Positions 56,460-62,309 of a DNA stretch of 64,000 nucleotides are shown here, piece after piece (positions within the stretch are counted from its first letter, which is position 1; each line of letters opens with the position of its first letter). Below the pieces are notes generated by a model, which saw nothing but the letters and a program-made list of their open reading frames with translations, was not told where the DNA came from and did not search any database. The DNA is taken from the NCBI RefSeq assembly GCF_028330965.1, contig NZ_JAQMUB010000026.1, forward strand, positions 1-64,000, written 5' to 3'. This stretch comes from Oscillatoria sp. CS-180. Its GTDB lineage: Bacteria > Cyanobacteriota > Cyanobacteriia > Phormidesmidales > Phormidesmidaceae. The position numbers and the translations under genes were made by a program.

Positions 56460-57932
56460 CTATGTTTCAAGATCGACAGACTCTAGAAAAGGAGACTGAA
56501 TCCGTTTGAGGAGTGCATAAAAAGGATCCCAATTATTTTCAGCGACAATGGGTTCCCAAATCGCTTCAATCTCTGGGCGCAATAGTACCGTTTTAGGATT
56601 CGTGCGCCGCAATCGTTCAGGAATTTGCTCAAGGGCTTGAGGTGTTTGGGATTGGAGCGATCGCTGATACAAAGTACGCCACTGATCCAACAGCGCTTGT
56701 GCCCCTCCATCAGATGCCTGCATGGTCGTCCGAAAAATCTCGTCAGCGTCCTCCACCCATTTCAGAGAAAATTGTCGCGTCAGCTCTAAAAAGAAAGTGT
56801 GGTAGCCAACTTCAACGTTACTCAACAGCTCAAGTGTCTGCTTCACCAAATCCACCCCTAAAGGGGACGGTAAGGCATCAAAGCCCAGCTTGTGAAGCAT
56901 CCGTTGCGTATAGTAATGCCAATAGTGACCTTCATAGCGGGCTAAAGCAGCGTCTAGTTCCGTTTGAGGCATAATTCGCTGTAGCGGTTTTTGTAACATG
57001 CGGAGATTCCACTGACAGACCGCAGGTTGGTTGCGAAGACAATAGCGACTTCCATAATCGAAATAAGCCGCCGTAAAGCGAGGATCGTACGTATCGATGA
57101 AGGCATAGGGACCGTAATCGAAGCTCTCCCCCGTAATCGACATGTTGTCCGTATTCAAAACGGCGTGACAAAATCCGACTGACATCCATTGAGCCACCAA
57201 TTCAGCAGTCCGCTCAACCAACTCACTATAAAAACGGACATAGCGCTCGGCACTATCTGTTAGCAGGCGGGCCTCAGGATAGTAAGTCTCGACAACGTGT
57301 TCCACGAGTCGCTGAATCAGGTCCGTCCTGTCTAAATAGTCCAACCGCTCAAACGTTCCAAAGCGAATGTGCGATCGACTGAATCGGACCATCACGGACG
57401 ATCTCGTCGGCGATGGTTCATCTCCCCGCCATAGCGATTCCCCTGTTTCAATTAAGCTCAACGTCCGTGATGTTCGCACGTCTAAAGCGTGGAGGGCTTC
57501 TGCCGCCAAAACTTCTCGCACTCCCCCTTTAAGGGTCAGTCGGCCATCCCCACCCCGAGAGTATGGCGTTGTTCCAGACCCTTTAGTCCCAAAATCGTAT
57601 AGGTTGCCATCTACTCCCCGAACCTGCCCATACAAAAACCCCCTTCCATCCCCCAAAAAAGCGTTGTAGGTACCGAACTGATATCCGTGGTAGCGCAACG
57701 CTAGGAAAGGCGATCGCCCTTCAAACTGGCCAAAGGCACTCACAAAATGCTCATCGCTGATTGCTGCTGGGTCAAGCCCCAATTGCGTCAAAATATCGTC
57801 ATTCCGAAACCGAAGTAGATGTTGAGGGAAATCTGCCGCCGCTACAACGTCATAGTAATCATCCCCAATGGACTCTAATAGAGGGATGTAGTCCAAAGAC
57901 ACAAGGGGGTTCGCCTGAGAAGCTGCGGTCAT
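56460..57932 (-). CDS. selO: SelO/YdiU-family protein AMPylase
   Basis: A 490-residue pseudokinase-fold protein. SelO motifs: [62 protein letters not shown] (catalytic Asn/Asp), and [13 protein letters not shown]. SelO transfers AMP from ATP to hydroxyl side chains of protein substrates, linked to oxidative-stress response. It lacks the C-terminal extension with selenocysteine (Sec/Cys) of eukaryotic SelO, as expected for bacteria. Full length. Confidence 0.92.
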
Positions 57933-57976: not shown

Positions 57977-58993
57977 TTAAAGTCCATCTTGGCTAAGAAA
58001 TAATGACTCCAATCCAGCACGGCCAGCTATTTTCTGAGCCAGATCTTTGAAATCCCAATATACGTTATTGACTGCCTTTACATGAGCACCAATCGCTCCA
58101 TCAGCAGGCTTGAGATGAAAAATTGGTTTACGGGCTTCTTGAGCCATTGGCATCAAGCTCTGATAGTGTTTCAGGAGTGCTAAACGGCTAGGGTCTTGTG
58201 ATGAGGCAAGGAAAGCTGCCTCTTGTGACTGAATAACATCAGCATGATAAACCTGAGGAATTCGCTCTACCCATCTTTGAAAGGCTTTAACAGGCCTATC
58301 AAATCGAACTCCATGCTGAAGAATGACGTATCCAATAGGTTGCATATCACCATTAGGCAAAACAAGATCTGGGGCCGGATTTTTGAGGATACGCTCCTGC
58401 CACTCTCCTCTCCACCGTCTCACCGTGGGCCCAAGATTCTTAAGCCCTTGCAATGAAAACAAATCGGGTGAAAGAGGCACAACAACATAATTCGCAGATA
58501 TTAAAGCAGCTCTATTGATGGCACCTAAGTTAGGCCCTAAATCAACTAACACAACATCTGCATCACTATTGATTGAGGCCTGATTTAAAAGTCTCCAGAA
58601 AGCCGAAATAACCCTGAAAGCTCTTTCTTTTCCATCTAAACAGTCTGGCCATTGGGATGATAATTCATCTTCAAATCCAGAAAGCTGTAAATCTCCAATC
58701 AAAAGGTTCAGTCCATCCTCTATGACTTCTAACTCTGGACTCGCAATGTCTCCAATTCCTCTAAGTAAAGGCTTGACACATCGAAAGACAGTATTGAAAC
58801 TTTCCTCTTTTTCCCATATTTCCTCTAACCGATTCTCGTCTAAAAAAGCTGATGTCAAGTTTGCTTGAGGGTCTAAATCGGCAGCTACAACACGTAAGCC
58901 TAAGTCAAAATACATCCAGGTCAAATGATAAACGAGGGACGTTTTTCCTACCCCCCCTTTATTGTTGAAGAAGGCAATAATAGGTGAACTCAT
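57977..58993 (-). CDS. ParA/MinD-type AAA ATPase coupled to a Schlafen-like protein
   Basis: A 338-residue ParA-like ATPase: deviant Walker A NNKGGVGKTSL, switch strand AADLDPQANLT, Walker B DVVLVDLGPNLGAINRAAL. It lacks an HTH. A C-terminal ~120-residue extension (PAPDLVLPNGDMQPIGYVI onward) includes LKHYQSLMPMAQEARKPIFHLKPADGAIGAHVKA. Its ATG overlaps the stop of the upstream Schlafen-like gene by 4 bases (ATGA), so the two are translationally coupled. No ParB or centromere site is near. A partner role in a two-component system with the Schlafen protein is inference. Confidence 0.87.
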   Translation of the reverse strand: MSSPIIAFFNNKGGVGKTSLVYHLTWMYFDLGLRVVAADLDPQANLTSAFLDENRLEEIWEKEESFNTVFRCVKPLLRGIGDIASPELEVIEDGLNLLIGDLQLSGFEDELSSQWPDCLDGKERAFRVISAFWRLLNQASINSDADVVLVDLGPNLGAINRAALISANYVVVPLSPDLFSLQGLKNLGPTVRRWRGEWQERILKNPAPDLVLPNGDMQPIGYVILQHGVRFDRPVKAFQRWVERIPQVYHADVIQSQEAAFLASSQDPSRLALLKHYQSLMPMAQEARKPIFHLKPADGAIGAHVKAVNNVYWDFKDLAQKIAGRAGLESLFLSQDGL

Positions 58994-60180
58994 TTTTGCC
59001 TCCTGATGACGACTGAAATATAAGAGTCTTCAATAGTAAATTCTGCTGGTGGATTTCCATTCTTTTCAAGCTCTTTCTGGGCTACAGGAATGCCGATACC
59101 AAAACGCTGAACATAGCCGAGGTTTTTCATGGCCTCTGCTAAATGAGGGTTCCGATAATCAGTCACGCCTTCGCCAAAATTTCGGCGGTTGACTTGTCCA
59201 AATAATCCGCCTGGACTTTGAATTTCAATTCGATCTTGAAACCAGTAAACTCGCACCGGAGCATAGGTCTCTTCATAAGAACGATGCATTACAGCATTAC
59301 GTACAAGTTGTTGCAATGCGGCGATAGGATAATCTGGTTGTTTTATCTCAACAGACTGCACTGTGATGTTTGTGGCCGTCGAAATATTGGCTTGCAAGAC
59401 CTCATCTATATAGCGCAGTAAATCCACCAAACTACCACTGATATCTTTTTGATCTCGAATAGGAGCAGTTAAATCTACACCATCGAAGCGAACAAATTGA
59501 ATATAGAATCCCGGAACAAATTGTCTTGGGTCCTTGCCAATTACTAGGATTCCTAAGCAGGTTGGAGAAGAATTTGGTTCCGGCGTCATAAACCGCAGCG
59601 AAATCAGCTTTTGATTTAAAGATCTTTGATTCTCTTGCAGTACTTCTGGCGCTAAGGCTGAAGCCAAATATTCATGCTGAAAACCCTCTAAGTCCAGATC
59701 GTCAATAGAGGCTGAAACGAAAGGGCGTAAATCAAAAGGTAAGTCCCTTGCACGTCTCTTTTCGTTGAGACGGCGTTCTTCTTCAGGGGTAGCCGTTGCA
59801 CGCCTAGGTCCAACTCGTACACAAGTACGTCCATCAAATCTAATCGGCGGAGCATCCGATGGCTCTACAATAATGACGGCTATCTCACAGTCATTGATGA
59901 TTCGCTTGTTCACCTGGAGCACGGGAAAAGGAAGGATCTTGCCCTCGGAACGGATGTTGGATAGGTTTAGCAGGAGATCATCTGTAATCGGTAAGTTAGA
60001 GCAAGTCCCATCATCATTGACTCCCACGAACAAAACGCCTGGCTGTTTGTGGTTTGGTAAGTCGTTAGCGAAAGCGCAAATTGCCTGCCTGATTTTTTTT
60101 CCGTCTGAAGCTGAAGCCTTACGCTCGACTCTATCAGATTCAAGATCGGCAAAGAGCATTGCCAGTTCTTGATCCTTCAT
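58990..60180 (-). CDS. Schlafen/AlbA_2 domain protein with C-terminal HATPase_c_4-type ATPase
   Basis: A 396-residue protein. The N-terminal AlbA_2 (Schlafen-type) domain (about 12-130) shows ESDRVERKAS, AICAFANDLP, VLFVGVNDDG, and the ALBA-type strand DGRTCVRVGPRRATATPEEERRL. The Glu/Lys residues of the putative nuclease/RNA-binding site are present. The C-terminal half (about 270-396) is the GHKL-like HATPase_c_4 block: LVRNAVMHRSYEETYAPVRVYWFQDRIEIQSPGGLFG, YRNPHLAEAMKNLGYVQRFGIGIP. A two-gene coupled unit with the ParA-type ATPase; related proteins occur in defence-type loci (inference). Confidence 0.87.
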   Translation of the reverse strand: MKDQELAMLFADLESDRVERKASASDGKKIRQAICAFANDLPNHKQPGVLFVGVNDDGTCSNLPITDDLLLNLSNIRSEGKILPFPVLQVNKRIINDCEIAVIIVEPSDAPPIRFDGRTCVRVGPRRATATPEEERRLNEKRRARDLPFDLRPFVSASIDDLDLEGFQHEYLASALAPEVLQENQRSLNQKLISLRFMTPEPNSSPTCLGILVIGKDPRQFVPGFYIQFVRFDGVDLTAPIRDQKDISGSLVDLLRYIDEVLQANISTATNITVQSVEIKQPDYPIAALQQLVRNAVMHRSYEETYAPVRVYWFQDRIEIQSPGGLFGQVNRRNFGEGVTDYRNPHLAEAMKNLGYVQRFGIGIPVAQKELEKNGNPPAEFTIEDSYISVVIRRQK

Positions 60181-60272
60181 ATGTCAGTCTCCACAGTCTT
60201 CTGTGTCAATCATAATCATGGAGAGTAGAGTTACAAAAAGTTTGTATGCTAATCCTGCGCTAGTTCAAATCC

Positions 60273-62309
60273 TCAAGAACCTGCCTGCGCTGTCTCTATA
60301 GTTGCGATCGCCGAATCACCAGCACTCGGGTGAAAGTACTCGTAGATCTGTTGAGCCATATGAGGACCAATGCCAGGAACTTCCGCCAGCTGTTCTGGCG
60401 AGGCTTCGCGAATGTAGTCGATAGAGCGAAAGGTGGCCAGCAGTTCTTTTTGGCGATGTTGACCGAGACCCGGAATATCCGACAATCGAGAGCGCCGCAT
60501 GCGATCGCTCCGCTTCTTACGGTGAAAACTCACGGCAAAACGGTGAGCTTCATCCCGTAACCGTCGCAGCAGCTGCACCCCTGGCTGTTCTGCCTCAGTT
60601 TTGAGCGGCGCCGAATCTCCAGGTAAGAAAATCTCCTCTCGCTTCTTTGCCAAACTGACAACGTTCAGTTCTGATAGCAAATTCATCTCTCGCAGAACGT
60701 CCACAACTGCCGAGAGCTGCCCCTTACCCCCATCAATCATCACGACGTCCGGCCAATCGGGATTACCCACGCGCGGCTTATTGGGGTCAGTCGCATAGCG
60801 CCGAAACCGCCGTCGAATCACTTCCGCCATACTGGCAAAATCATCTGAATGTCCTGCTCGCACCTCAGGATTTTTGATCTTGTAATGGCGATAGTGTTGC
60901 TTTGCAGGCATCCCATCGACAAACACCACCTGAGAAGCTACGGCATCCGATCCCTGAATATGAGAAATGTCGTAGCCTTCAATCCGTTTTGGCAGGTCTG
61001 GTAAATCCAAGATCTCAGCCAAATCCTGCATGGCTTGGGCATTGCGATCAGCCACTCGCTGAGTCCGCACCAGCTCATACTGAGCATTGCGCTCGACCAT
61101 CTCTACCAGCTCAGCCTTGGTCTGACGCTGGGGCATCTCGATAGATACCTTACGTCCCCGCTGCTCAGTCAAATACTCTGCCAGAATATCCCCATCCGGC
61201 AGCTCATGCTGCACCAAAATCTCCGCTGGAATCTCAATAGATTCAGCTGTTTGATAGTGCTCCTCCAATACCCGCTGCAATATTTCGCCTGGTGTGCCGG
61301 CCTGGGCATCGGCATTGAACCCAAGCCGTCCGACCAAACGTCCAGCTCGGATTTGGAATAGTTGAATGCAGGCAAATTGATCATCACTGGAGAGGGCGAT
61401 CGCATCCCGCGACACCGTATCATCCGGTAGCGCCACCTTTTGGTGCGCCGTTAGCCGCTCTAGGCCTTGAATTTGATCCCGCAGCTCAGCCGCCTGTTCA
61501 AATCGCATTTCCTCAGCTGCCTTTTCCATCTGCCGCGTTAAGGCGTTGACCAACTCATCCGTTCGTCCTTGAAACACCATCGCCACTCGCTGCACAATCT
61601 TGTGATAGTCCTCAGGGGAAATGAGCTGCTGGCAGACTCCCGGACAGCGACCAATATCGTAGTTCAGACAGGGACGATCTTTGAACAAAGGCTGAGGCCG
61701 CTGCCGCAGCGGAAAAATTCGCTTCGCAATGCTCAAAGTACGACGCAACAGTCCCGCGTCAACGTAGGGACCGTAATAGCGATCCTTCAGATTCTTGCGG
61801 CGCTTACGGGTCACAAAAATGCGGGGATAATCCTCTGACCACGTAATGCAGAGATAGGGATACTTCTTGTCGTCCTTTAGCAGCACGTTAAAGTGAGGCT
61901 GGTGCTGCTTGATCAGATTCGCTTCCAGCGCCAGTGCTTCAGCTTCAGTATCGGTGACGATAAATTCGATTTCCACAACCTGCATCACCATCATGGCAAT
62001 CCGAGGCATATGGCGATGGCTATCGCGAAAATACGATCGCACTCGATTCCGCAGCTTTTTTGATTTACCGATATAGAGGATCTGATCCCGCGCGTCTTTC
62101 ATGAAATAGACGCCGGGTTCTAACGGCAGCTCCTTTAGCAAATTCTCAAGGCGATCAGGATCTTTGACCAGAGGGGGACGCACTTCGGAATACACGATGT
62201 CAGTGAGTGGGACAAAACCTGCACTAAAAGCATAGCGAGGATCCTGGAAAGATAGCGGATACGGAATAACGACTTTGTGAATTGCAATATCCGAAGCCCA
62301 TGAAGGCAA
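60273..62309 (-). CDS. uvrC: Excinuclease ABC subunit C
   Basis: A 678-residue UvrC. GIY-YIG nuclease: [31 protein letters not shown] Cys-rich region ([18 protein letters not shown]), the UVR motif ([24 protein letters not shown]), the RNase-H-like second nuclease ([36 protein letters not shown]), and C-terminal HhH repeats ([28 protein letters not shown]). It makes both incisions in nucleotide-excision repair. The exact N-terminal start (up to 20 residues shorter) is uncertain. Confidence 0.96.

Follow-up and report, generated by a model that had tools for sequence, protein, structure and literature searches.

A Schlafen-ParA gene pair in Oscillatoria sp. CS-180 as a probable two-gene conflict module of a ParA family with exchangeable partners

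Introduction

Automatic annotation labels ParA proteins as partition proteins, and the question raised by the present locus is what such an ATPase does when its gene overlaps that of a Schlafen-type protein. The window, that is, the whole stretch of 64,000 nucleotides from Oscillatoria sp. CS-180 that was analysed, carries such a pair on the reverse strand between uvrC and selO. A first-pass annotation made from the letters alone had proposed that these genes may form an antiviral or stress-induced RNA-targeting module in which the ParA protein acts as the sensor or positioning partner, and this interpretation was found to be partly supported.

Two coupled genes between uvrC and selO

Both open reading frames were recovered where they had been reported, and the assignments were made from the reading frames and Pfam. 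The upstream gene encodes a Schlafen-type protein of 396 aa (58990..60180, minus strand) and the downstream gene a ParA/MinD-type ATPase of 338 aa (57977..58993, minus strand), with a start/stop overlap of four bases (58990..58993). As context only, uvrC (60273..62309) lies upstream and selO (56460..57932; PF02696, E 3e-211) downstream, both on the same strand. The pair had been described as standing alone between selO and uvrC, which was right as to placement, but uvrC lies only 92 bp upstream in the same orientation, so that the pair need not have a promoter of its own. In this 92-bp gap (60181..60272), no structured RNA was detected above chance (fold z-score 0.64), and the promoter scan returned four promoter-like matches against 3.9 expected from shuffled sequences, again nothing above chance.

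Pfam agreed with the domain reading of the first-pass annotation, namely an AlbA_2 domain with a C-terminal HATPase_c_4 domain, followed by a ParA-like ATPase, and neither window protein matched ParB or an HTH. Additionally, no ParB gene was found near the window ParA, whose neighbours are Schlafen, selO and uvrC, and the locus thus lacks the adjacent ParB of a ParABS system. No close paralogue of either protein was found in the same genome, where the other ParA matches reached E 7.6e-4 or worse and a single further AlbA_2 gene is located on another contig. The pair was absent from all five congeners searched; as regards an empty site, in these five genomes neither selO nor the module follows uvrC, and selO is placed elsewhere.

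The context of the window pair consists of housekeeping genes, with no defence island, and none of the BREX core genes pglZ, brxC and pglX was found beside it, although they are present in some relatives. No full-length match to a system protein was obtained for the pair in PADLOC-DB 2.0.0; what matched was limited to parts of long pAgo/Aga models and to a P-loop stretch of 40 residues. A pAgo/Aga membership of the Schlafen protein was considered and dropped, because these matches are partial and involve long models.

Predicted active sites of the two proteins

In the Schlafen protein, the SLFN_AlbA_2 domain was assigned by Pfam to residues 14-127 (E 3e-13; 50.8 bits against a curated cut-off of 25.3), and HATPase_c_4, a GHKL ATP-binding domain, to residues 308-392 (E 5.7e-18). 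When 42 non-identical pairs were aligned, E14 and E19 were kept in all 41 readable relatives and D56 in 37 of the 42. The active site of the RNase SLFN13 is composed of E205, E210 and D248, and the E205A and E210A variants are inactive (PMC5862951). The spacing of E14, E19 and D56 resembles that of these three residues, a correspondence drawn from spacing and not from a residue-level superposition. The protein carries the three-carboxylate site Glu-x4-Glu ... Asp and is, on this basis, a putative RNase.

In the GHKL domain, the N-box Asn was invariant across the 42 pairs. The catalytic Glu of GHKL ATPases occupies the position four residues before this Asn, and in 31 of the 42 pairs this position is a Gln. 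Hence, many of these Schlafen GHKL domains may bind ATP without hydrolysing it efficiently. The predicted structure of the Schlafen protein was weak (seven sequences, pLDDT 55) and, since its overall confidence was low, only the N-terminal domain of the model was used; in a structure search, this domain matched the N-domains of SLFN13, SLFN11 and SLFN12, as well as 2kyy/3lmm.

In the window ParA, Pfam assigned AAA_31 to residues 5-197 (E 2.3e-26) and also CbiA. The Walker A motif is of the deviant type, N-K-G-G-V-G-K-T, in which K12 and K17 were conserved in 42/42 relatives, and D39, D41 and D151 were likewise invariant. The protein also has a long C-terminal region that is conserved in the family. 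Its predicted structure reached a pTM of 0.83, with 3pg5 (DIP2308) as the closest structure, followed by Soj/ParA, and the profile match to 3pg5 (E 4.5e-35) covered almost the full protein.

Conservation and decay of the pair

Close relatives of the window ParA, about 47-81% identical to it, were gathered from cyanobacteria, actinobacteria, Pseudomonadota, Bacillota, one Bryobacteraceae genome and viral contigs. In 54/54 non-redundant loci with a close ParA, the gene that immediately precedes it in the same orientation is a Schlafen gene or its remnant; this count comes from a ParA-anchored search and leaves out one further locus cut by a contig end. In the control anchored on Schlafen, which covered cyanobacteria only, 17 of the 373 genomes scanned held a close Schlafen, and ParA was immediately beside it in all 17. 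Moreover, the start/stop overlap measured exactly 4 bp in 41 of the 44 pairs examined, which would be expected to couple the translation of the two genes. Because of the 54/54 and 17/17 associations and the recurrent overlap, Schlafen-ParA is one conserved unit and no chance neighbourhood. The co-occurrence over several phyla also gives a positive answer to the check, proposed at first reading, of whether the pair is conserved across genomes.

The decay of the unit was asymmetric. Among the 54 loci, both genes were intact in 43, Schlafen was broken beside an intact ParA in seven, both were broken in four and the reverse was never observed. This contrast of seven against none, which comes from a small sample of loci found through ParA, fits a harmful effector that is held by ParA. 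One solitary intact Schlafen relative was found without ParA (G071 C1:739635-740804, corresponding to L272:3666-4802), in which the first catalytic Glu is replaced by Asp and the motif Lys by Asn.

Exchangeable partners of the long-ParA family

The window ParA falls within a family of "long ParA" proteins of about 330-370 aa that are similar along most of their length and whose members are coupled to differing enzymes, usually by an overlap of a few bases. SIR2_2 genes follow the long ParA on plasmids of Spirosoma, Vibrio and Salmonella, on chromosomes and on viral contigs, and HEPN genes follow it in many cyanobacteria and actinobacteria, in Burkholderia and in phage Pf1. A RelA_SpoT gene comes after the long ParA in L087 and in the viral contigs L138, L142, L143, L144, L149, L151, L154, L156, L157, L159 and L160, which suggests a nucleotide-synthetase toxin under ParA control, and a PIN_12 protein is encoded downstream of one long ParA. 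The Schlafen partner is upstream of ParA, whereas the SIR2, HEPN, RelA_SpoT and PIN_12 partners are downstream. The V. cholerae SIR2 system was also considered as a ParA-SIR2 case and ruled out, as it corresponds to SIR2-HerA (Nezha).

In a tree of 96 ParA sequences, the Schlafen-, SIR2- and HEPN-paired proteins each formed one group (SH-aLRT 100, 100 and 98, respectively), and the RelA/SpoT-paired ones fell into two separate branches. In the Schlafen, SIR2 and RelA branches the Walker A motif is KGGVGKT, whereas most ParAs that are HEPN-paired or stand alone in prophages (L042, L033, L028, L034, L064 and others) have KGGVSKT. A constant ATPase is thus combined with changing toxic enzymes, a pattern familiar in bacterial immunity, and therefore the ATPase would be the controller and the enzyme the effector. 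The controlling role that had been suggested for ParA was strengthened by these SIR2, HEPN, RelA/SpoT and PIN couplings of the same family.

Some individual loci deserve mention in their own right. In phage Pf1 (AY324828.1), an unannotated open reading frame that overlaps the Soj-like Orf317 (L042:5013-5540) matched HEPN_RiboL-PSP (E 2.4e-9), and Pf1 therefore carries a HEPN-ParA unit. On a Salmonella Infantis megaplasmid (L035:4896-7910), the genes are ordered DNA methyltransferase, ParA and SIR2, possibly a three-gene defence unit. Stand-alone long ParAs also occur, above all in the immunity regions of prophages, both in Salmonella phages and in E. coli. One of them, in E. coli KE47 (L064:5029-6105), recurs in near-identical form (at least 99%) in 109 of 5426 E. 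coli genomes and is a probable relative of the anti-phage prophage protein GiPD474, which is compared below.

Defence neighbourhoods

It had also been proposed to look for the pair in defence islands, and some of the relatives' pairs were indeed found inside BREX, DISARM and Hma operons. The gene order is BrxC-PglZ-BrxD-SLFN-ParA-BrxHI in L220 and the same without BrxC in L249, SLFN-ParA-BrxC in L010 and L012, PglX-SLFN-ParA-PglZ in the viral contig L128 and DrmD-SLFN-ParA-DrmMI in L007, and in L265 the unit lies beside HmaC. About 45 other contexts were read, the majority of which had no recognised defence neighbour. When 90 neighbouring proteins were roughly compared with 89 distant ones from the same genomes, matches to DISARM and related systems were found near the pair only. 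MADS membership was rejected, given that the PADLOC mad3/mad8 matches were mostly to UvrA in the cyanobacterial loci and to an ABC transporter in L218, an ABC-ATPase artefact.

Apart from these operons, the gene immediately preceding the pair in the same orientation is uvrA in seven cyanobacterial loci (L212, L213, L214, L225, L226, L263 and L264), as it is uvrC in the window. Since nearly all of these loci come from one family, most of the uvrA placements are attributed to shared descent, and the uvrC and uvrA neighbours were not taken as showing a role in excision repair.

Proposed function and alternative explanations

Judged from the sequences compared, the pair is conserved, coupled, patchy in distribution and often in defence operons, its catalytic residues are kept and its partner has been exchanged several times. 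Schlafen-ParA is very probably a conflict or defence module and, more specifically, the reading that we favour as fairly probable is that of a two-gene conflict module with a ParA-controlled Schlafen RNase, probably acting by anti-phage abortive infection. This reading is supported by the obligate coupling, the asymmetric decay, the exchange of effectors, the defence context, the conserved residues, the activity of GiPD474 and the earlier prediction for HEPN-ParA. The Schlafen protein would be the effector, a latent endoribonuclease that most likely cleaves tRNA or rRNA, and its GHKL ATP-binding domain would help to set the active or inactive state. ParA would act as the controller, an ATP-dependent dimer that restrains or positions Schlafen. 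When infection disturbs the cell, the state of ParA would change and the RNase would be released, so that the cell or the population would be protected from the phage. Counted against this reading are the lack of a PADLOC-named system, the housekeeping context in the window, the many contexts with no defence neighbour and the solitary Schlafen, although in the latter the catalytic Glu and the motif Lys are changed. Furthermore, AlbA_2 domains can also serve in DNA binding.

The asymmetric decay would also be accounted for by a plain toxin-antitoxin pair, in which ParA would neutralise Schlafen constitutively and the genes would persist by addiction, or act in stress, with no phage sensing. The same was proposed for the HEPN-ParA/Soj dyad (Anantharaman et al. 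2013, PMC3710099), and the occurrence of family members on plasmids and phages is in agreement with it. However, this explanation is considered unlikely, since defence is indicated both by the pairs embedded in the operons of BREX, DISARM and Hma and by the published finding that a ParA-like ATPase acts against phages on its own, the effector gene comes first, unlike in most type II toxin-antitoxin pairs, and Schlafen was found on no plasmid at E 1e-40.

It is quite improbable that the AlbA_2 domain binds DNA as a ParB-like partner of ParA, with a role in segregation, transcription or repair that might be connected with the neighbouring uvr genes. Such a role could be read from the ParA fold, which after 3pg5 is closest to Soj/ParA, and from the same-strand uvrC and uvrA genes upstream, but the partners of the sister ParA clades are SIR2, HEPN, RelA/SpoT and PIN enzymes and no DNA-binding adaptors, ParB and HTH are absent, the catalytic Glu pair is invariant and the distribution is patchy, as the congeners illustrate. 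Finally, the view of the pair as an accessory or backup part of BREX-like systems with no autonomy, which the gene orders inside BREX operons and the listing of Schlafen RNases as BREX backup effectors in more than 1000 taxa (PMC12839542) would favour, is very improbable, because most pairs, including that of the window, have no BREX gene nearby and the pair thus travels and persists alone.

Taking up again the conflict module controlled by ParA, the long-ParA core could be an unrecognised class of immune controllers with interchangeable effectors (Schlafen, HEPN and PIN RNases, SIR2 NADase and RelA/SpoT nucleotide synthetase), comparable to STAND and CBASS sensors, with the window pair as its Schlafen branch; this wider proposal may as well prove wrong as right. 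If true, thousands of ParA annotations on plasmids, prophages and chromosomes would be misleading, and a new sensing principle would be at work, in which a nucleoid- or nucleotide-sensing ATPase unleashes RNases or NADases. It would also explain why phages are blocked by a ParA-like prophage protein that stands alone, and it would provide the bacterial Schlafens, which are related to the human antiviral SLFN proteins, with a dedicated regulator.

Comparison with known systems

The window ParA shares with ParABS the ParA ATPase fold and the deviant Walker A motif, but it has no ParB, and the family partners are toxic-type enzymes. A partition system was therefore rejected, as ParB is absent and the partners of the sister clades are enzymes.

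Among bacterial Schlafens, RNases with a histidine-kinase-like ATPase domain have been listed as BREX backup effectors in more than 1000 taxa (PMC12839542), in a paper that cites Taboada et al. 2025 (bioRxiv) on bacterial Schlafens. The BREX-linked proteins resemble the present ones in their AlbA_2 domain, minimal histidine-kinase-type (GHKL) ATPase, linkage to BREX and proposed role as tRNA-cleaving backup effectors. However, a C-terminal wHTH is described there that is absent in the window protein, and a ParA partner is not mentioned there.

Solved structures are available for both types of protein. DIP2308 (3pg5) is a long-ParA member and DIP2311 (3lmm) an AlbA_2/GHKL protein, which differs from the window Schlafen in its 583 aa and extra domains. 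Both come from one species, Corynebacterium diphtheriae, and have near-consecutive locus numbers; they may be encoded by neighbouring genes, in which case the structures of the two members of a related unit may be known.

On the ParA side, GiPD474, a ParA/MinD/Soj-like ATPase of the Gifsy-1 prophage, protects Salmonella and E. coli and blocks T4, FO1 and Alf5 (PMC12724215). Like the window ParA, it is a ParA-like AAA_31 ATPase, in its case experimentally anti-phage, but it is a single gene product of about 360 aa with no adjacent effector, whereas the window ParA is always found with Schlafen and does not follow this single-gene type. An E. coli prophage ParA at the equivalent place (repressor-ParA-integrase) aligns with the window ParA along a stretch of about 315 residues at 26% identity. 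GiPD474 is likely kin of the long-ParA family, as judged through prophage ParAs at the equivalent place, which resemble the window ParA over their full length, and not through its own sequence.

A search for papers that link ParA to Schlafen, SIR2 or HEPN, in a literature set with few subscription journals and no preprints, returned only GiPD474 and the HEPN dyad of 2013; units of ParA with Schlafen, SIR2 or RelA were not reported in it. Among effector-ParA pairings, only the HEPN-ParA dyad had thus been described, the HEPN protein being of the MAE_18760 family and the dyad having been predicted as a toxin-antitoxin (Anantharaman et al. 2013, PMC3710099). In both, a ParA/Soj ATPase forms a two-gene unit with an RNase-type effector, and the HEPN-paired ParAs found here belong to one long-ParA family with the window ParA. 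On the other hand, the window partner is composed of SLFN_AlbA_2 and HATPase_c_4 with no HEPN, it is encoded upstream and not downstream, and the window ParA belongs to another clade, with KGGVGKT in place of the KGGVSKT of most HEPN-paired proteins. Schlafen-ParA would thus be a variant of the known HEPN-ParA type with another effector, within a wider and apparently undescribed family of effectors that ParA would control.
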